DNA from: Acidimicrobiia bacterium
Lineage (GTDB): Bacteria; Actinomycetota; Acidimicrobiia; Acidimicrobiales; AC-14
DNA: 64,000 nt
Assembly (NCBI GenBank): GCA_023265025.1
Contig: JAHFUP010000018.1
Coordinates: 1 to 64,000 of the forward strand
Direction: 5' to 3'
A model generated the notes under the pieces. It made no database searches and was not told the DNA's origin. It saw only the letters and a program-made list of their open reading frames with translations. The position numbers and the translations under genes are program-made. Shown in pieces: positions 35,206 through 44,382 of the stretch. Position 1 is the first letter of the stretch, and every line of letters begins with the position of its first letter.

Positions 35206-36180
35206 ATGCACCGGATCCCTCGAAAGCTCTCGCTCGGCCTGCTGGTCGCGACCGCGGCGCTGTCCTCCTCCTTGTCGCCGGTCGGCGCCGGCGCCGGCAA
35301 CACCGCCGACCAGTCGGCAAACCGCGTGACGCTCGCAGTCATCGGCGACGTTCCCTACGGCACCGTCCAGGAAACGACCTTCGGCGACCTGATCGGCGCA
35401 GTGAACGCCGACGCCAAGGTCCGGGCCGTCATCCACGTCGGCGACATCAAGAGCGGCAGCACGACGTGCACGGACGAGCGGTTCGCAGCCGTCCGCCGGG
35501 CCTTCGACACCTTCGAGGACCCGCTGGTCTACACGCCGGGCGACAACGAGTGGACCGACTGCCACCGGCTGAACAACGGCGCCTACAACCCGCTCGAACG
35601 GCTGGCGACAATCCGCACGATGTTCTTCGCCAACCCGGGGAAGGCGTTGGGCCGCCATCCGATGCGGGTCGAGTCGCAGCCCACGCTCGTCGAGGACGTC
35701 CGCTGGATCGAGTCGCGGGTCGCCTTCGCCACCCTGCACGTCATCGGCAGCAACAACGGCCTGGCCCCCTGGACAGGAATCGGCGAGGCGGCACCGACGG
35801 CAGCCCAGGCCGCCGAGGTCGATGCCCGCGTCGCCGCCGTCCTGGCCTGGATCGACGCGACCTTCGACGCGGCCGAAGCGTTGGGCCTCCAAGGCGTCGT
35901 CCTCGCCATGCAGGCCGACACCTGGTCCCCCACGCCCTCCGGCGCGCAGCAGGCCATCGTGACCCGGATCGCCGCGAGGACCGCCGGTTTCGCCGGCCAG
36001 GTCCTGCTGCTCCAGGGCGACTCGCACCAGTTCGTGACCGACGACCCCCTGGGCCTCCCCAACTTCACCCGGATCGTCGTCCACGGCGAGACGCTGCCAT
36101 TCGAGTACCTCCGCCTCACGGTCGACCCAGGCGTCGCGCAGCTGTTCACCTGGGAGCGGGTCCAGGTCGCACAGGGGTAG
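35206..36180 (+). CDS. Secreted calcineurin-like metallophosphoesterase
   Basis: This 324-residue protein has a signal peptide (RKLSLGLLVATAALSSSLSPVGAGAG) and a metallophosphoesterase-like core: VIGDVPYG, VIHVGDIKSGS, YTPGDNEWTD and LQGDSHQF supply the usual D, GD, GDN and GDxH metal ligands in order. The second-half insertion is larger than in minimal members. It is probably exported and may release phosphate from organic esters, which fits the phosphate gene region downstream. A hairpin follows the stop. Confidence 0.82.
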   Translation: MHRIPRKLSLGLLVATAALSSSLSPVGAGAGNTADQSANRVTLAVIGDVPYGTVQETTFGDLIGAVNADAKVRAVIHVGDIKSGSTTCTDERFAAVRRAFDTFEDPLVYTPGDNEWTDCHRLNNGAYNPLERLATIRTMFFANPGKALGRHPMRVESQPTLVEDVRWIESRVAFATLHVIGSNNGLAPWTGIGEAAPTAAQAAEVDARVAAVLAWIDATFDAAEALGLQGVVLAMQADTWSPTPSGAQQAIVTRIAARTAGFAGQVLLLQGDSHQFVTDDPLGLPNFTRIVVHGETLPFEYLRLTVDPGVAQLFTWERVQVAQG

Positions 36181-36380: not shown

Positions 36381-37922
36381 ATGACGTCGGTCTTCGTGCC
36401 CGGGCCGGTGGCGCCGGAGCCGGTGGCCCTGCTGAGATCGTTGGCCGGCGCCGGCTTCGAGGTGGGGCCGGCACGATCGGTGGAACGCACGCTGCTCGAC
36501 ACCTTCGACGGCCGGCTGCACGCCGCCGGCATCCGACTGGAGCTTCGAACCGACGCCGGCACCCGACTGATCGTGCACGACGCCGGGCCGGCGACGGCGT
36601 GGACGCCGGTCGGCGCGATGCCGTCAGTGGCCGGCGACCTTCCGGCCGGCCCGCTGCAAGACCGTTTGGCACCCCTGCTGGACGTGCGGGCGCTGATGCC
36701 GACAATCGGCGTTGCGGCCCGGGTCTCCTCCGCGGTACGGCGTGACGCAGAGGGGAAGGCCGAGGTCGCGTTCGCCGTCCACGACCAGCTGAAGCTCGCC
36801 TCCGGCGACCCGATCGCCGGCCCGTGGGCGATCGAGCTCGAGTCCTTCGAGGGCTACCCGAAGGCCGCCCGGCAGGCCGCCCGCCTGCTGTCCTCCCTCG
36901 GGCTGACCCGCCGGGACGCGGGCCTACTGGACGCGGTAGCGGAGGATGCCGGGGTCGATCTCCGGGGCTTCGTCGACTCTCCGACCGTCGCGCTCGAGCC
37001 ATCCGACGGTGCGCTGGACGCGTTCCGGCGCGTGCTGGCCAACCTCGCGGCCACGATCGAGGCCAACTGGCACGGGACGGTCGCCGACGTCGATACCGAG
37101 TTCCTGCACGATCTGCGGGTGGCCGTCCGGCGGACGCGATCGCTGCTGTCACACGGAAGAGGGGTGCTGCCGGCGGGCGAGCGTGACCACTTCGGCGCCG
37201 AGTTCCGCTGGCTGGGGACCGTGACCAGCCCGCCACGCGACATGGACGTGTACCTCATCGAGTGGCCGACGTACGTCGCGTCGCTCGACGAGGCGTCGCG
37301 TCGCGCCCTGGCGCCGGTCGTCGACCACCTCGCCCACCGGAGGAAGGCCGAGCACGACACGCTCATCGGCCACCTGGGCTCGGATCGCTACCGCGCCCTC
37401 ATGACCGCATGGCTGGCGTGGCTCGACGCTCCCCTGCCCGGCGGTCCGTTGCCCAAGCGGGCGACCAAGCCCCTCGGCGCTGTCGTGGCCGATCGCCTGG
37501 TGGATGCGCAGGACCGGCTTCTCACGCGGGGCCGGGCCATCGGTCCGGCCACGCCGGCCGAGGAGCTGCACGAGCTGCGCAAGGACGCCAAGCGCCTCCG
37601 GTACCTGCTCGAGTGCTTCGGCGGGATGCTGCCGGCGGCGCTGAGCAAGCCGTTCGTCCAGCGACTCAAGGCGCTGCAGGCGAACCTCGGCGAGCACCAG
37701 GACACCGAGGTCCACACCGCCCAGTTGACCGCCATGGCGCATGAGCTGCAAGACGCTCCCGGTGTGACGACCGACACGCTCGTGGCCATCGGCCGGCTCA
37801 CCGAGCTCTTCGACCGGCGCCGGCTGGCCGCCCGTGAGGAGTTCGCTGCGCGATTCGCCGACTACGACACGAAACAGACCGCTCGATCGCTGGCCGAGCT
37901 GTTGAACGCGGCACGGCCCTGA
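36381..37922 (+). CDS. CYTH and CHAD domain protein, polyphosphate-associated
   Basis: This 513-residue protein has an N-terminal CYTH-like half (VERTLLDTFDGRLHAAGIRLELR, later VAFAVHDQLKLASGDPIAGPWAIELESFEGYPKA) and a C-terminal CHAD helical domain. The CHAD marks are FLHDLRVAVRRTRSLL with conserved His and Arg, and ELHELRKDAKRLRYLLECF. CHAD domains bind polyphosphate; CYTH domains hydrolyse triphosphates or transfer phosphoryl groups. In the N-terminal half the ExExK motif is not obvious, so catalysis by that domain is doubtful. Its stop overlaps the parA start (TGATG). Confidence 0.88.
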   Translation: MTSVFVPGPVAPEPVALLRSLAGAGFEVGPARSVERTLLDTFDGRLHAAGIRLELRTDAGTRLIVHDAGPATAWTPVGAMPSVAGDLPAGPLQDRLAPLLDVRALMPTIGVAARVSSAVRRDAEGKAEVAFAVHDQLKLASGDPIAGPWAIELESFEGYPKAARQAARLLSSLGLTRRDAGLLDAVAEDAGVDLRGFVDSPTVALEPSDGALDAFRRVLANLAATIEANWHGTVADVDTEFLHDLRVAVRRTRSLLSHGRGVLPAGERDHFGAEFRWLGTVTSPPRDMDVYLIEWPTYVASLDEASRRALAPVVDHLAHRRKAEHDTLIGHLGSDRYRALMTAWLAWLDAPLPGGPLPKRATKPLGAVVADRLVDAQDRLLTRGRAIGPATPAEELHELRKDAKRLRYLLECFGGMLPAALSKPFVQRLKALQANLGEHQDTEVHTAQLTAMAHELQDAPGVTTDTLVAIGRLTELFDRRRLAAREEFAARFADYDTKQTARSLAELLNAARP

Positions 37923-38665
37923 TGAAGGTGCTCGCCACCTACAGCATCAAGGGCGGCGTCGGGAAGACGACGTCGGCGGTGAACCTGGCCCGGGAGGCCG
38001 CGGCGGCGGGGAGCCGCGTCCTGGTGTGGGACCTCGACCCCCAGGGGGCGGCGACCTTCTTCTTCCGGATCAAGCCGAAGGTGAAGGGCGGGACGCAGCG
38101 CCTCGTCGGCGCCAAGGGCGACCTGGTCGACCACGTCCGGGCCAGCGACATCGGCGGGCTGCATGTGATCCCCGCCGACTTCTCCCTGCGCCACCTCGAT
38201 CTGCATCTGGACGGCACGAAGCGCCCCACCGAGCGGCTGGCGTCGCTGCTGGCCGGCGTGGACGGACGCTACGACGTCGCCCTTCTCGACTGCCCGCCGA
38301 GCATCTCCCTGGCCAGCGAGAGCGTCTTCGGGGCCGCCGACTTCCTTCTCGTGCCGGTGATCCCCACGACGCTCTCCTCCCGCACGCTGTACCAGCTCTC
38401 GGAGTTCCTCGCCGGCCAGCAGTCACCCCCCGCCCTGCTCCCCTATTTCTCCATGGTCGACGGACGCAAGCGTCTCCACCGCGACGTGATGGAGGCGGTG
38501 CGGTCCGAGTGGCCCGATCTGCTCACGACGGTCGTCCCGAACGCCAGCGTGATCGAGCGCATGGGCCCCGAGCGGGCTCCGGTGGCGGCGTACGCGCCGG
38601 CGTCGGCGGCGGCGAGGACCTTCGCCTCACTGTGGGCCGAGGTCGCGGCCCGGCTCTGGTCCTGA
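37922..38665 (+). CDS. ParA-family ATPase, orphan
   Basis: This 247-residue protein has the deviant Walker A KGGVGKTTSAVNLA, then VLVWDLDPQGAATFFF (Walker A') and VALLDCPPSISLASESVF (Walker B). No ParB and no parS site are visible. The gene starts within the stop of the CHAD gene, so the two proteins are coupled. ParA-type ATPases position cargo along the nucleoid or cell pole. Polyphosphate granule placement is an attractive but unproven idea, since CHAD proteins associate with such granules. It ends 75 bases before a small zinc-ribbon gene. Confidence 0.9.
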   Translation: MKVLATYSIKGGVGKTTSAVNLAREAAAAGSRVLVWDLDPQGAATFFFRIKPKVKGGTQRLVGAKGDLVDHVRASDIGGLHVIPADFSLRHLDLHLDGTKRPTERLASLLAGVDGRYDVALLDCPPSISLASESVFGAADFLLVPVIPTTLSSRTLYQLSEFLAGQQSPPALLPYFSMVDGRKRLHRDVMEAVRSEWPDLLTTVVPNASVIERMGPERAPVAAYAPASAAARTFASLWAEVAARLWS

Positions 38666-38740: not shown

Positions 38741-38989
38741 ATGGTCCCGAGGTTGCTTGGCCGGGTATGGATGTGTTCCGCGTGCGGCGCTCCGTCGGAG
38801 GCGCCGGTGCTCTGCGCGCCATGCAGCGAGGCGTTCGCGCTGGCTCGGGATGCCCATCCGAGCGCCGGCGGCACGCCGATCCCGACCGAGGTCGACGCCC
38901 CAGCCGGCGCCGACGACATGGACATGTGGGACGCGTGGTCCCGCCTCGGCGATGTGGGCGGTCGACCGGAGCGGTCCCGCTCCGGCTGA
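38741..38989 (+). CDS. Small protein with paired CxxC motifs
   Basis: This 82-residue frame starts MVPRLLGRVWMCSACGAPSEAPVLCAPCSEAFALARDAHPSAGG and has two CxxC knuckles (CSAC and CAPC), consistent with a zinc ribbon. The C-terminal half is acidic and low in complexity. It follows parA on the same strand and ends two bases before the convergent pstA stop. I recognise no family. The spaced cysteines and lack of a competing frame favour a real gene, but short GC-rich frames can deceive. Confidence 0.5.
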   Translation: MVPRLLGRVWMCSACGAPSEAPVLCAPCSEAFALARDAHPSAGGTPIPTEVDAPAGADDMDMWDAWSRLGDVGGRPERSRSG

Positions 38990-38990
38990 A

Positions 38991-39854
38991 CTATCGGACC
39001 GTGAACCTCCGGGCGACCAGGCGGGCGACCGCGGTCAGCACGAAGACGAGGACGATGAGGGTGAGCGCCGCGCCCCAGGCCCGGTCGATCGCCCCCTCGA
39101 ACGGCTGGCGGGCATTGATGAAGATCTGGGCCGACAGCGACGTGTTCGTCCCGTCGAAGAGATGACGGTTCGACTCGGTCACCGTGCCGATGGTGAACAG
39201 CAGCGGCGCCGTCTCGCCCGCGGCCCGGGCGACGGCCAGCAGCGCCCCGCTGACCACGCCGGCCAGCGCCGCGGGCAGCACGACGGTGAGGATCGTCCTC
39301 GACGGACGGGCACCCAGCGCGGCGCTGGCCTCCCGGAGCTCGTTCGGCACCAGTTGCAGGGCCGTCTCCGCCGAGCGAATCACGATCGGCAGCATCAGGC
39401 AGCCGAGCGCCAAGGCGCCGGCGAACCCGGTCTGGCCGAAGCGCAGCACCCACACGGTGTAGATGAACAGGCCCATGACGACGGACGGCACACCGGCCAT
39501 CACGTCGGACAGGAACCGGATGACCCCCGCCAGCCGGCCCCGCTTGCCGTATTCGTTGAGGTAGACGGCGGCGAGCACGCCCAGCGGCACCGCCATCGCC
39601 GTGGCGGCACCGGTAGTGAGGAGCGTTCCCAGAACGGCCGGCCCCATGCCGGGGCCCCGGAGCCGCGAGCTGATCGGGATGTCGCCGGTGAGGAACTTCC
39701 AGTCGACGATGCCCGCGCCCCGTCGGACCAGGTACGTCACGACGAAAGCCAGGGGGATGGCGGCGACCAGCACCGACAGCCAGATCGACGCGGTGGCCAG
39801 CCGATTGCGGAGCCGGCGCGCCGGGCTGACGGTGCCGAGAAGAAGCGTGCTCAT
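38991..39854 (-). CDS. pstA: Phosphate ABC transporter permease PstA
   Basis: This 287-residue inner-membrane protein has about six helices and PstA signatures: GIVDWKFLTGDIP after the first helix, MAGVPSVVMGLFIYTVWVL, REASAALGARPSRTILTVVLPAALAGVVSGALLA and ARAAGETAPLLFTIG. With PstC it forms the channel for phosphate. The start overlaps the pstC stop by 4 bases. It is the last gene of pstS-pstC-pstA; pstB is in the divergent unit. Confidence 0.95.
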   Translation of the reverse strand: MSTLLLGTVSPARRLRNRLATASIWLSVLVAAIPLAFVVTYLVRRGAGIVDWKFLTGDIPISSRLRGPGMGPAVLGTLLTTGAATAMAVPLGVLAAVYLNEYGKRGRLAGVIRFLSDVMAGVPSVVMGLFIYTVWVLRFGQTGFAGALALGCLMLPIVIRSAETALQLVPNELREASAALGARPSRTILTVVLPAALAGVVSGALLAVARAAGETAPLLFTIGTVTESNRHLFDGTNTSLSAQIFINARQPFEGAIDRAWGAALTLIVLVFVLTAVARLVARRFTVR

Positions 39855-40822
39855 CCGTTGCGGCGGCCCCGGGCGATGATCGTGCGGGCGACCACGTTCA
39901 CGACGATCGTCAGCGCGAAGAGCTCGACGCCGAGGCCGATCAGGGCGGCGCGGTGCACGCCACCGGACTCGCCGAACTCGTTGGCGATCACCGCGGCCAT
40001 GGAGTCGCCGGAACGAAAGAGGTGGGCGGTGATCTGGGGGCTCGAGCCGATGACGAGGGCGGCGGCGATCGTCTCGCCCATGGCCCGGCCGAGCCCGAGC
40101 ATGACCGCGCCCGTCATGCCGGCGCGACTGTGGGGGAAGACTGCGGCCCGCAGCATCTCCCAGCGGGTGGCGCCGAGGGCGTAGGCCGCCTCCTTGGCCG
40201 TGACGGGGACGGTGTCGAACACCTCCCTCGTGATCGAGGTGATGATCGGCGTGACCATGAGGGCCAGGATGATGCCGGCGGTGAACAGGCCCCGGCCCGT
40301 CGACGGCCCGGCGAAGAGGGTGGAGACGAACGGGACCGGTGAGGTGACGTCGCTGATCCGGTCGTAGACGCCCGAGATCCACGGGGCCAGGACGATCACC
40401 CCCCACAGGCCGTACACCACCGACGGGATGGCGGCCAGCAGGTCGACGAGGGAGCTGACCGGTCGCCGCAGCCGGCGGGGCGCCACGTCGGAAAGGAAGA
40501 GGGCGATCCCGACGCTGACGGGGACGGCCAGCACCAGGGCGATGATGGCGGTGACGACCGTGCCGTAGACGAAGGGAAGGGACCCGAAGACATCCGCGCT
40601 CGGGGCCCACCGCTTCGACGTGAAGAACCGCAGTCCGTCGTGGGAGAACGCCGGCCACGCCTCACGGGTGGTGGAGACGGCGATGAGCCCCAGGATGACC
40701 AGGACGAGCAGCCCGCAGCCCAAACTCACACCGCGGAAGGCACGGTCGCTCCAGCCCGCCCGGCCGGGGCTGGTGAGCGGCCTCCGCGCCGGCGGGCTGG
40801 GTGGAGCGGTGGTGATGGTCAT
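39851..40822 (-). CDS. pstC: Phosphate ABC transporter permease PstC
   Basis: This 323-residue permease has a long N-terminal cytoplasmic leader, a first helix, the external segment GLRFFTSKRWAPSADVFGSLPFVYGTVVTAIIA, and family motifs LLAAIPSVVYGLWGVIVLAP, TAKEAAYALGATRWEMLRAAVFPHSRAGMTGAVMLGLGRAMGETIAAALVIG. It pairs with PstA. The pstS stop lies 25 bases upstream of its start. Confidence 0.95.
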   Translation of the reverse strand: MTITTAPPSPPARRPLTSPGRAGWSDRAFRGVSLGCGLLVLVILGLIAVSTTREAWPAFSHDGLRFFTSKRWAPSADVFGSLPFVYGTVVTAIIALVLAVPVSVGIALFLSDVAPRRLRRPVSSLVDLLAAIPSVVYGLWGVIVLAPWISGVYDRISDVTSPVPFVSTLFAGPSTGRGLFTAGIILALMVTPIITSITREVFDTVPVTAKEAAYALGATRWEMLRAAVFPHSRAGMTGAVMLGLGRAMGETIAAALVIGSSPQITAHLFRSGDSMAAVIANEFGESGGVHRAALIGLGVELFALTIVVNVVARTIIARGRRNG

Positions 40823-40846: not shown

Positions 40847-41950
40847 CTAGGCGGGCACGACGAGGACGTCCAACTGGGAGGCGGCCTTCTGCAGCAGCGC
40901 CGGCGCCAACGGGGCGTAGTCGACGTCCTTGGCCAGCTTCTGCCCGTCGGTGAGCATGTAGCGCAGGAAGGAGCGGATGGCCTCGCCCTTGGCCTTGTCG
41001 GCCTGGTTCTTGTACACGAGGATCCACGTCGGTGCGGTGATCGGGTAGGCGTCGGCACCATCGGCGTTGAGGGGGTTGTAGGTGAGGTCGGCATTGACCT
41101 GGGCGCCGGCGAGGGCGGCGGTCGCCCCGGCCAGATCGGCCACCACGGCCTTGCCCGCCTTGTTCTTGATCTTGGCGAACTGCAGGCCGGACGCCTTGGC
41201 GTCGGAGAGGTCGACGTAGCCGATGGCACCACTGGTGGCCTTGACGATCTGGGCCACGCCCTGATTGCCGTTGCCGCCCTGGGTGTCGGCCGGCCACTCG
41301 ACGGTGGAGCCGGACTTGAGCGTCCACGCCGCCGGCGCCGCGGCCACCAGGTACTTGGTGAAGTTCTCCGTGGTGCCCGAGCCGTCGGAGCGGTGGGCGA
41401 CGGTGACGTCGGTGGAGGGCAGCTTGACGCCCGGGTTCAGGGCGGCGATCGCGGGGTCGTCCCACTTCTTGATCTGGCGCTGGAAGAGCTTGGCGATGGT
41501 GTCGGCGTCGAGGGTGAGATCCTTCACCTCACCGAGGTTGTACGAGACGGTGATGGGCGCCGCAGTCGTCGGGATGTACAGGAACTCGCCCTTGTACTTC
41601 GACACGTCCGCGGCGGCGACCAGGCCGTCGGAGCCGGCGAAGTCGACCACGCCGTCCTGAAGGCTCTGCCGACCGGCACCGGAGCCGGTGGCGTTGTAGT
41701 TGACGGTGACGCCCGGCTGGACCTTCTTGTAGCCGGCGATGACGACCTCGTAGAAACCCTTGGGGAAGGTCGCCCCGGAGGCGTTGAGCGTGGCCGAGAG
41801 CGCCGGTTCCTTCGTGGTCGCCGTCGCCTGGCTGCCGGTGTCGGTCGAAGCGGTGTCGGCCTTGTCGCTGCCGCCGCAGGCGCTGGCGAGCAGCGCCACG
41901 CCCAGCAGACCGGCAACCGGACCGGCGAATCGTGTTGACCTTCGGCGCAT
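40847..41950 (-). CDS. pstS: Phosphate-binding lipoprotein PstS
   Basis: This 367-residue protein has a lipoprotein signal with lipobox LLASAC, so it is anchored outside the membrane. The phosphate-binding fold shows LNASGATFPKGFYEVVIAGY, TVNYNATGSGAGRQSLQDGVVDFAGSDGLV and AHRSDGSGTTENFTKYL, the standard ligand loops. It captures phosphate for PstCA. Two PHO-box units on its coding strand lie about 90-105 bases upstream, so strong induction by phosphate starvation is expected. Confidence 0.96.
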   Translation of the reverse strand: MRRRSTRFAGPVAGLLGVALLASACGGSDKADTASTDTGSQATATTKEPALSATLNASGATFPKGFYEVVIAGYKKVQPGVTVNYNATGSGAGRQSLQDGVVDFAGSDGLVAAADVSKYKGEFLYIPTTAAPITVSYNLGEVKDLTLDADTIAKLFQRQIKKWDDPAIAALNPGVKLPSTDVTVAHRSDGSGTTENFTKYLVAAAPAAWTLKSGSTVEWPADTQGGNGNQGVAQIVKATSGAIGYVDLSDAKASGLQFAKIKNKAGKAVVADLAGATAALAGAQVNADLTYNPLNADGADAYPITAPTWILVYKNQADKAKGEAIRSFLRYMLTDGQKLAKDVDYAPLAPALLQKAASQLDVLVVPA

Positions 41951-42035
41951 CGTATGAGCCCCCTTCTTCGTCGTTCTGTAGCGATCGACGCTAGAGAGCG
42001 ATGGTTGACGCCACGTGGCTCGAAAGTGGATTCGA

Positions 42036-42054
42036 GGTGAACGCGACGTGAAAC
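42036..42054 (-). promoter_or_regulatory. pstS: PHO box facing pstS
   Basis: On the minus strand, TTTCAC and GTTCACC occur 11 bases apart (GTGAA cores at 42037 and 42048 on the plus strand). Tandem 11-bp units with a TTCAC core are the PhoP/RegX3-type PHO box of actinobacteria. Confidence 0.65.
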
Positions 42055-42083
42055 GGCGGTCGAATCCGGCGATGACACCTGGC

Positions 42084-42105
42084 GTTCACCGCCCGTTCAC
42101 CGCGC
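42084..42105 (+). promoter_or_regulatory. pstB: PHO box facing pstB
   Basis: GTTCACCGCCC is followed directly by GTTCACCGCGC, two nearly identical 11-bp PHO units. They lie 48 bases before the chosen pstB start and point away from the pstS box, giving a divergent pair of PHO boxes. Confidence 0.75.
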
Positions 42106-42152
42106 AGACGGTTCTGCGTCACTGTCGCTCGGTACGTTCCCGTCAGAGCCTC

Positions 42153-42998
42153 ATGACCGACGTCCGTGGCCCCGTCCCCAGCCTGGCAGCCGTCACCCGC
42201 GACACCGTCCCGCCCGTCGGGCCCGTCGTCTTCGAATTGGCGAAGACGAGCGTCTACTACGGCGACTTCCGGGCCGTGCGGGATGTGACGCTCGACGTGC
42301 GCAAGGGCCAGATCACCGCCCTCATCGGGCCGTCGGGCTGCGGCAAGACCACCCTGCTGCGCGCGCTGAACCGCATGCACGATCTCATCGCCGGCGTGCG
42401 CGTCGAGGGAGCCCTGCGCTACCACGGCGACGACCTCTACGGGCCCGGCGTCGACCCGGTCGTGGTCCGGCGCCTGATCGGCATGGTCTTCCAGCGCCCG
42501 AACCCGTTCCCCAAGTCGATCTACGACAACGTCGCCTTCGGCCCCAGGCTGGCCAAGCTTGCGGTGAACATGGACGACTGCGTGGAGCACTCGTTGAAGA
42601 AGGCGGCGCTGTGGGACGAGGTCAAGGACCGCCTCAAGTCCTCGGCCACCCAGCTGTCGGGCGGCCAGCAGCAGCGGCTCTGCATCGCCCGTGCCCTCGC
42701 CGCCGAGCCCGAGGTCATCCTCATGGACGAGCCGTGCTCGGCCCTGGACCCCGTCGCTACGCTTCGCATCGAGGACCTCATGCAGGAGCTCCAGGCCGAC
42801 TACACGATCGTGATCGTGACCCACAACATGCAGCAGGCAGCCAGGGTCAGCGACATGACCGCCTTCTTCACCGCCGAGGTCGACGCCGACGCCGACCGCC
42901 GCGCCGGGGTGCTCGTGGAGTTCGACCGCACGGAGAAGATCTTCACCAACCCGTCCGATCCGCGGACCGAGAGCTACGTCAGCGGGCGCTTCGGGTGA
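42153..42998 (+). CDS. pstB: Phosphate ABC transporter ATPase PstB
   Basis: I chose the ATG at 42153 because it follows the PHO box; an upstream in-frame ATG at 42015 would place the box inside the gene. The 281-residue ATPase has Walker [10 protein letters not shown], signature [15 protein letters not shown], Walker [14 protein letters not shown] and switch THNMQQA, all classic PstB. It powers PstCA although it is encoded in the opposite unit, with phoU and regX3. It overlaps the phoU start (TGATG). Confidence 0.96.
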
Positions 42999-43657
42999 TG
43001 TCCAGTCGGGCGCAGTTCCAGGAGGCGCTGGACATGCTCCGGATCGACGTGGACGCGCTGGGGCTGATGGCCGAACAGGCGGTGAGCGCCTCCCTGCGCG
43101 CCCTGGTCGGCGGCGACCGTGAGGCGGCGCTCGGCGTCGTCGCCGGCGACGACCGCACCGACGCTCTGTTCGTGGCCCTCGAGGAGCGGGCCTACGCCCT
43201 CGTGGCCCAGCAGGCGCCGGTCGCCGCCGATCTGCGCTTCCTGATGTCGTCGCTGCGCGTCATGGCCGACTACGAGAAGACCGGCGACCGGGCCGTGGCA
43301 GTGGCCAAGTCGGCGCTGGCCGATTGGGACCGCGAGGCGACCACGGTCGGGCTGCTGGCCCGCATGGGCGACCTCGCGCTCACGCTTCTGACGGCCGCCC
43401 GCCGGGCGTGGCTGGACCAGGACCTCATCGTCGCCTCCGACCTCAAGTACCGCGACGACGTCCTCGACGAGACCTTCCGCCGCCTCGTCGCCCACCTCCT
43501 CGACCGGAGCGGGCCGGGGGCGCCGAGCCTGGTGCTGCACGCCCACGCCGCCGGCCGCAACCTCGAACGCATCGCCGACCACGCGGTGATCATCGGCGAA
43601 CGCGTCAGCTACACCCTCACCGGCGACCCCAGCGCCCTCGCCGCGGAGATCCGATGA
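42998..43657 (+). CDS. phoU: Phosphate-signalling regulator PhoU
   Basis: This 219-residue protein is two three-helix PhoU bundles: SRAQFQEALDMLRIDVDALGLMAEQAVSASLRAL and a second repeat with DLKYRDDVLDETFRRLVAHLL. The metal-binding pattern DDRTDALFVALEERAYAL and NLERIADHAVIIGERVSY are conserved. PhoU relays Pst transporter status to the sensor kinase and dampens uptake. It overlaps pstB upstream and regX3 downstream by a few bases, so dosage of the three is tied. Confidence 0.95.
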   Translation: MSSRAQFQEALDMLRIDVDALGLMAEQAVSASLRALVGGDREAALGVVAGDDRTDALFVALEERAYALVAQQAPVAADLRFLMSSLRVMADYEKTGDRAVAVAKSALADWDREATTVGLLARMGDLALTLLTAARRAWLDQDLIVASDLKYRDDVLDETFRRLVAHLLDRSGPGAPSLVLHAHAAGRNLERIADHAVIIGERVSYTLTGDPSALAAEIR

Positions 43658-44382
43658 CTGCTGTGGCTCCAGACGCGGCGACCACGGTGTTGGTCGTCGA
43701 GGACGAAGAGTCTTTCGTCGAAGCGCTCACCGTCGGTCTCAAGCGCGAGGGGTTCCGGGTGGAGGTGGCCCGTGACGGCGTCGAGGCCCTCGAGCGTTTC
43801 GACGCTGTCCACCCCGACCTGGTCCTCCTCGACGTCATGCTGCCCATGGTCTCCGGCATCGAGGTCTGTCGGCAGATCCGCACCCACTCTCGCGTCCCGA
43901 TAATCATGGTGTCGGCCCGGACATCGGAGATCGACATCGTCGTGGGCCTGGAGGTCGGGGCCGACGACTACGTCTCGAAGCCGTACCGGATGCGGGAGCT
44001 GGTGGCCCGGATCCGGGCCTCCCTCCGGCGCCTCCCCGTAAGGGACGAGGCCACCGCTCCCACCGTGGTGGAGGTCGGCCATGTGCGCCTTGATGCGGAG
44101 CGTCACGAGGTCTTCGTGCGGAACAATCCGGTCAGGCTCCCGCTCAAGGAGTTCGAGCTCCTGGAGGCGCTGCTCGACAACGCCGGGCGGGTCCTCACCC
44201 GGGACGCGCTCATCGATCGGGTGTGGGGGTCGTCCTACGTCGGCGACACGAAGACGCTCGACGTCCACATCAAACGGCTCCGGGCCAAGATCGAGGCCGA
44301 CCCGAAGTCGCCGGTCTCCATCGTCACGATCCGGGGGCTCGGCTACAAGTTCGAGCGACCGTCCGCCGCCAAGGACCGGTAG
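43654..44382 (+). CDS. regX3: OmpR-type phosphate response regulator, RegX3-like
   Basis: This 242-residue regulator has a receiver domain (VLVVEDEESFVEALTVGLKREGF, phospho-acceptor Asp in LVLLDVMLPM, Lys in VSKPYRMREL) and an OmpR/PhoB winged helix (PLKEFELLEALLDNAGRVLTRDALIDRVWG, then KTLDVHIKRLRAKIEADP). The order phoU-regX3 and the PHO boxes nearby make it the Pho-regulon activator. A SenX3-type kinase gene, usually adjacent, is absent from the window. It is the last gene of the pstB unit. Confidence 0.93.
   Translation: MTAVAPDAATTVLVVEDEESFVEALTVGLKREGFRVEVARDGVEALERFDAVHPDLVLLDVMLPMVSGIEVCRQIRTHSRVPIIMVSARTSEIDIVVGLEVGADDYVSKPYRMRELVARIRASLRRLPVRDEATAPTVVEVGHVRLDAERHEVFVRNNPVRLPLKEFELLEALLDNAGRVLTRDALIDRVWGSSYVGDTKTLDVHIKRLRAKIEADPKSPVSIVTIRGLGYKFERPSAAKDR

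Follow-up and report, generated by a model that had tools for sequence, protein, structure and literature searches.

A CHAD protein and a ParA-type ATPase are encoded side by side in a 64,000-nucleotide stretch of an Acidimicrobiia genome (hereafter the window), and the best explanation of the findings is that CHAD and ParA act together as a single unit in the storage of phosphate. That CHAD and ParA are functionally coupled, and that they are linked to phosphate and polyphosphate (polyP), is well supported, because the pair is conserved across phyla, the two genes occur together and are lost together, and ppk1 or pst genes are present in their neighbourhoods. The first-pass annotation had suggested that ParA may place or segregate polyP granules. 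We still infer this, and on the more specific reading, in which ParA positions or segregates the granules and the CHAD protein serves as the granule adaptor, we are evenly divided. Because it recurs in several phyla, often by phosphate genes, the pair is a good candidate for granule positioning.

The two genes were confirmed to overlap by a single base and to lie next to a Pho locus, as had been annotated, and a PstS-like protein, two permeases, an ABC ATPase, PhoU and an OmpR-type regulator were recognized there by Pfam (Table 1), with the names PstA, PstC and PstB assigned from gene order and Pfam family. A small cysteine-containing ORF of 82 aa follows parA (38741–38989); since a similar frame follows a parA remnant in another genome of the same genus (G003; L019), this ORF is conserved without the CHAD-parA pair. 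The gene upstream of the pair (35206–36180) gave no Pfam match at 0.01; its start resembles a signal peptide, and some of its motifs are what we take to be metallophosphatase-like.

Table 1. Features of the CHAD-parA pair and the adjoining Pho locus, in window coordinates.
Feature	Position	Strand	Basis or remark
CHAD protein gene	36381..37922	+	513 aa; ORF list, Pfam, AlphaFold2 model
TTM/CYTH-like fold region without ExExK (residues 1–198)	36381..36974	+	fold match
CHAD domain (Pfam residues 218–449) with residues matching the polyP pore	37032..37727	+	Pfam, alignment to CtCHAD
TGATG, 1-base stop/start overlap of CHAD gene and parA	37920..37924	+	sequence
ParA ATPase gene, Soj-like fold	37922..38665	+	247 aa; Pfam, AlphaFold2 model
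Deviant Walker A KGGVGKT (ParA residues 10–16), invariant	37949..37969	+	alignment
Family-specific basic loop FRIKPKVKGG (ParA residues 48–57)	38063..38092	+	alignment
PstA-like permease, approximate start	38991..39854	-	Pfam BPD_transp_1 on ORF 38991–40658
PstC-like permease	39851..40822	-	Pfam BPD_transp_1
PstS-like phosphate-binding protein	40847..41950	-	Pfam PBP_like_2, E 3e-39
PstB-like ABC ATPase	42015..42998	+	Pfam ABC_tran on 42162–42998
PhoU	42995..43657	+	Pfam PhoU, E 4e-29
OmpR-type response regulator, PhoB-like; true start inside ORF	43324..44382	+	Pfam Response_reg, Trans_reg_C

The CHAD domain of the window protein is of the long type and was matched by Pfam CHAD (PF05235) at residues 218–449 (E 3e-56; 191 bits compared to a cut-off of 25.6). 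In the AlphaFold2 model, residues 197–512 showed their best structural match to CtCHAD of Chlorobium tepidum (6qv7; Z 35.0). The polyP-binding pore of CtCHAD is described in the available text of its report as consisting of H253, R256, R260, R296, R418 and Y419 (PMC6537752). Counted along the alignment to CtCHAD (6qv7, 6qva), all six pore residues are common to both proteins and correspond to H243, R246, R250, R286, R407 and Y408 of the window protein, and they were invariant in 32/32 aligned rows. Of the two surface patches tested in CtCHAD, the front patch has one of two positions basic here (K441, corresponding to K430) and the back patch one of four (K390, corresponding to R379). Since CtCHAD reaches 284–286 bits against a profile built from the paired CHADs, the solved polyP complex belongs to a close relative of the paired CHADs. 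Judged from the alignment and the predicted structure, the CHAD protein has the pore that binds polyP in the CHAD family.

The CtCHAD structure comprises the CHAD part alone, whereas the window protein adds an N-terminal domain of the TTM fold. Pfam detected no CYTH domain in the 513-aa protein even at E<=10. However, residues 1–192 of the AlphaFold2 model (mean pLDDT 94.3, built from 32 aligned relatives) could be aligned to TTM/CYTH enzymes (Z 14.4 to the TTM of Sulfolobus acidocaldarius, 7ns9; 159 residues at an rmsd of 2.9 to the predicted model), and the N-terminal ~198 residues are thereby predicted to have the CYTH fold. The TTM/CYTH enzyme motif, which goes by the name ExExK, was present in this domain in 0/32 aligned relatives. 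Since the TTM fold is predicted and ExExK is absent, the domain looks like a dead enzyme with a degenerate CYTH/TTM fold. Of the label CYTH-CHAD given in the first-pass annotation, the CHAD half was upheld and CYTH was kept as a predicted fold, whereas CYTH as a sequence-level Pfam assignment was rejected.

The same order of the two domains is found in CYTH-CHAD enzymes of the E. coli ygiF type and in a CHAD paralog on another contig (C181) of the same genome. This paralog contains ExExK, shows a Pfam CYTH match and adjoins a gene for PPK1, whereas the paired protein has lost ExExK. The C181 cluster contains PPK1, CYTH-CHAD, a Ppx-like frame, a response regulator and Pst-like frames, where the Ppx, Pst and regulator names were assigned by reading translations; it is a second phosphate locus in the window's genome (L219; G000:C181:24000–34500). 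ExExK was found in 1/47 paired CHADs compared to 14/21 CHADs from genomes without ParA (proteins without the N-terminal part, one paired and four from genomes without ParA, are omitted), a contrast that is confounded by descent, as the paired CHADs are mostly of one clade and the CHADs of that clade from genomes without ParA also lack ExExK. Within this clade, at least 180 residues precede the CHAD domain in 44/44 paired rows compared to 2/6 rows without ParA, which represents few independent events. In the pairs of two genomes (G357 and G404) the CHAD protein does not contain the N-terminal domain.

The 247-aa ATPase was assigned to ParA-type Pfam families (AAA_31, E 2e-31), and BcsQ-type models of Pfam and NCBIfam matched it weakly. 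Residues K10, K15, D39 and D123, which represent the deviant Walker A with its signature lysine and the aspartates of Walker A′ and Walker B, were invariant in 32 rows, and by its sequence ParA retains every ATPase motif. The invariance of the Walker residues across these rows indicates that ATP use by ParA is under selection. The AlphaFold2 model (pLDDT 87.2) aligned to Soj with a Z of about 30, to McdA with a Z of 26 and to BcsQ and FleN with a Z of 24–25. A basic loop, FRIKPKVKGG, in which R49, G56 and G57 are invariant and positions 49, 51, 53 and 55 are K or R in 31–32 of the 32 rows, is absent from the Soj sequences with which ParA was aligned. ParA has a pI of 9.06, and its nearest named relative, from an Acidimicrobiia metagenome-assembled genome, showed 80% identity.

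A scan of genome contigs yielded 380 ParA relatives, the best 80 of which were kept. CHAD was found directly upstream on the same strand in 44 of these best 80 of 380 loci, and a 4-base overlap of CHAD and parA in 31 of the best 80. The paired loci included some from Actinomycetota and Methylococcales, besides loci labelled Desulfuromonadaceae, Deferrisomatales and Deltaproteobacteria; the 36 loci without CHAD include four (L055, L086, L098 and L112) that have <1 kb upstream and are uninformative. When the neighbouring frames were clustered with ParA, CHAD and antisense frames set aside, no further gene shared by every pair, for instance one for a small adaptor, was found; other clusters were present in at most 15/80 loci, and CHAD is the sole constant partner beside ParA in the best 80 loci.

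Co-occurrence was observed in two classes, with Fisher tests that ignore descent. Among 247 genomes of the window's class, ParA (E<=1e-40) was present in 26 and CHAD in 116; CHAD was found in 25/26 genomes with ParA compared to 91/221 without it (p 4e-8, descent ignored), the single exception being a genome that is 79% complete (G209), and CHAD was adjacent to ParA in 11/26. Among 143 genomes of the class of Methylobacter tundripaludum, ParA was present in 18 and CHAD in 42; CHAD was found in 16/18 genomes with ParA compared to 26/125 without it (p 3e-8, again ignoring descent) and was adjacent in 13/18. The pair is patchy yet recurrent, and by these counts it goes beyond chance. Conservation of the pair, a check of which the first-pass annotation had proposed for Actinomycetota, was found to extend across phyla, whereas within Actinomycetota itself, the window's phylum, ParA was found in just 10 of 296 sampled genomes and a CHAD adjacent to it in 7 of these. 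A CHAD of the same clade was also present in six sampled genomes without the paired-type ParA.

The two genes also kept company where they had been separated. Each of eight Methylococcales genomes in which ParA is unlinked contained one same-clade CHAD, and pstS was located within about 3 kb of the unlinked CHAD in 8/8 of these genomes. Among the 10 genomes of the window's family, two contained both genes and eight contained neither gene of this type; all 10 contained a CHAD matching the window's at just 26–31% identity, so that the window's genome (G000) and G002 hold both kinds. In one of the genomes of the same genus (G003), 43 codons from the 3′ end of parA survive (L019:1500–1632) and no such CHAD gene was detected, in a draft genome in which misassembly is possible.

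Trees were built from rows hand-chosen from the collected loci, an incomplete census, and are limited by long branches and quick searches. In the CHAD tree (92 rows), 44/48 paired CHADs fell into one branch of 59 rows (support 96), which also included nine unlinked CHADs and six from genomes without ParA. In the ParA tree (90 rows), 49/49 paired ParAs fell into one branch of 65 rows (support 91) together with 16 unlinked ones, and a further 12 ParAs from the window's family were set apart (support 99). Path lengths of 48 partners were correlated (r 0.80, whereas none of 2000 permutations exceeded 0.42).

Among the best 80 loci, 19/44 pairs had a Pst, PhoU, PPK1, Ppx or SixA-like gene in their vicinity, compared to 2/36 other loci. 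The order ppk1-CHAD-parA was present in five loci (L041, L046, L051, L066 and L087), with a gap of 20–37 bases between ppk1 and CHAD. In the genome samples, in which bias is smaller, the fetched flanks contained a gene for PPK1, Pst, a SixA-like protein or CYTH in 15/27 pairs compared to 0/13 unlinked controls, which were basal ParA relatives away from CHAD, mostly of two families (f9 and f33), and this difference shows that the phosphate link is not general to all ParA relatives. PPK1 or Pst itself was found in the flanks of just 5/27 pairs, the remainder of the 15 having SixA-like or CYTH neighbours, and in 12/27 pairs no phosphate or polyP gene was detected inside the fetched flanks. Genes for stand-alone CYTH proteins and SixA-like histidine phosphatases recur by the pair (L041, L046, L087, L230, L241 and L256). 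In Paracoccus marcusii pCP157_03, genes in the order pstC-pstA-pstB-phoU-phoB are followed by small genes, CHAD, an AAA ATPase, CYTH and NUDIX, and in Paracoccus aestuarii CHAD, an AAA ATPase, CYTH and NUDIX were found. The CYTH, SixA-like and, in Paracoccus, NUDIX neighbours possibly belong to a larger module.

Cargo positioning is the simplest way to understand a polyP-binding protein tied to a ParA ATPase. If the pair acts on granules, the CHAD protein would coat or dock onto polyP granules, and an ATP-bound ParA dimer would bind the nucleoid or another surface as well as the CHAD protein. Contact with granule-bound CHAD would stimulate ATP hydrolysis and release of ParA, and the resulting ParA gradient may space the granules and divide them among daughter cells, on the model of the ParA/McdA gradients for plasmids and carboxysomes. 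ParA would make contact either with the dead TTM domain or with some part of the CHAD domain surface. For known partners of ParA/MinD ATPases, a positively charged and disordered N-terminus is described, in the sections available, as the part that touches the ATPase (PMC10241942). A basic N-terminal tail of this kind was sought on the CHAD protein and was absent: the N-terminus begins in a strand in the AlphaFold2 model, and the first 15 residues have a net charge of 0 or below in 30/32 relatives. At the other end of the protein, a basic tail (>=2 K/R in the last 12 residues) was present in just 16/32 CHAD rows. The CHAD N-terminus being without a basic disordered tail, either the contact would have to be of another kind or ParA regulates and does not position. 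The missing tail is the strongest point against granule positioning. The two pairs whose CHAD has no N-terminal domain, the 12/27 pairs without phosphate genes and the six same-clade CHADs in genomes without ParA also count against it, as do CHAD proteins of Ralstonia, the deletion of which is stated to be without apparent phenotype in the available part of a report that also describes the physiological roles of CHAD proteins as awaiting definition (PMC6537752). Our tentative view, held at slightly less than even confidence, is that the pair represents a dedicated ATP-driven system by which polyP granules are positioned and inherited in several phyla, and in which an adaptor consisting of a dead TTM domain and CHAD meets ParA via a folded surface and not via a disordered tail.

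The system resembles several known ones in part. The likeness to McdAB drawn in the first-pass annotation stands as an analogy, in that a ParA-type ATPase is encoded beside a cargo-linked protein without ParB and a ratchet is proposed, but the window ParA fits Soj (Z about 30) better than McdA (Z 26), and its partner is a folded CHAD protein without a basic disordered N-terminus, the cargo of which would be polyP. Soj/Spo0J (ParAB) contains the ATPase closest to that of the window in fold and sequence but differs in that no ParB is found at the window pair and a separate ParA-ParB is present on C113. AlgP of Pseudomonas aeruginosa affects the spacing of polyP granules according to the text available, as is proposed for the pair, but it is a histone H1-like DNA-binding protein and not an ATPase. 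In Acidithiobacillus, a folD-ppk-parA-CHAD group is called highly conserved in the genus (PMC10892726), and a figure legend places parA near ppk and a CYTH-CHAD gene (PMC6416229); parA, CHAD and ppk1 are thus neighbours there as in our ppk1-CHAD-parA loci. The available text of these papers presents ParA just as a partition protein and proposes neither a role for it nor granule positioning. Within a search of mostly open-access literature without preprints for CHAD with ParA or polyP positioning, the gene pair was mentioned in the available text of these two papers alone, and the words polyphosphate and CHAD do not occur in the main text of a survey of multiple ParA/MinD ATPases (PMC10241942). 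A 2025 review counts polyP granules, in its available part, among the bacterial organelles for which positioning is little understood, and it leaves the energy need open (PMC13052382). If true, granule positioning by the pair would provide the ParA/MinD family with one more cargo and CHAD proteins with a function, and the ParA-CHAD unit is a concrete candidate for polyP positioning in Methylotuvimicrobium buryatense, Methylomonas lenta and Paracoccus marcusii.

The main rival to granule positioning is that ParA acts as a nucleotide-dependent regulator or scaffold, which would bind CHAD, and perhaps PPK1 or Pst, and switch polyP synthesis, polyP breakdown or phosphate uptake, a role comparable to that of BcsQ for cellulose synthase and of FleN for FleQ. 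We regard this as rather unlikely, but as an explanation to be taken seriously: the tight genetic link with ppk1, pst, SixA-like phosphatase and CYTH genes, without any cell-biology gene, speaks for it, as do the weak BcsQ-type matches, the alignment of BcsQ and FleN structures with ParA and the CHAD N-terminus without the usual partner tail, whereas the closer fit of ParA to Soj in sequence and fold (Z about 30 compared to 24–25 for BcsQ/FleN) and the absence of any one enzyme gene that is constant by the pair, CHAD being the sole constant partner, speak against it.

Less probable is a static tether modelled on proposals for AlgP and Pha proteins, in which ParA would hold CHAD-coated granules on the nucleoid via non-specific DNA binding and without an ATP-driven gradient. 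It would agree with the pI of ParA and the conserved basic loop, and nucleoid-tethered polyP and PHB granules are described in the available part of the 2025 review, which calls their ATP need unknown (PMC13052382), but the invariant Walker residues in 32 rows argue against it. We find it quite improbable that the two genes share regulation alone, as members of a phosphate-starvation regulon that do not work together; the adjoining Pho locus would be explained by this, but the mostly 4-base overlaps, the co-loss and the co-occurrence after unlinking suggest more than co-regulation. A role in chromosome or plasmid partition, with ParA beside CHAD by chance, was rejected as highly improbable in spite of the generic ParA annotation and of relatives on Paracoccus plasmids, since the genome holds a different ParA with a ParB_N match directly beside it on C113, no ParB_N was found on the pair's contig C101 (the three matches in the genome are on C113, C165 and C80, in line with the first-pass description of an orphan ParA without ParB), CHAD adjacency recurs across phyla and the copy on an annotated plasmid sits in a pst/CHAD/CYTH cluster.

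A mobile plasmid gene was also considered and rejected, as plasmid relatives of ParA showed <60% identity and both Paracoccus ones examined sit in a CHAD/CYTH cluster. For a ParA relative in Pontibacter sp. G13, no CHAD was present in the listed stretch, which ends at the end of the record, and the record of a Halomonas relative is unannotated. One parA match (G104:C2:143625–144371) was reported by the search with one in-frame TGA. The basal ParA relatives of families f9 and f33 (L137–L149) were found apart from CHAD, some of them by a phosphoglycerate-mutase-like frame.
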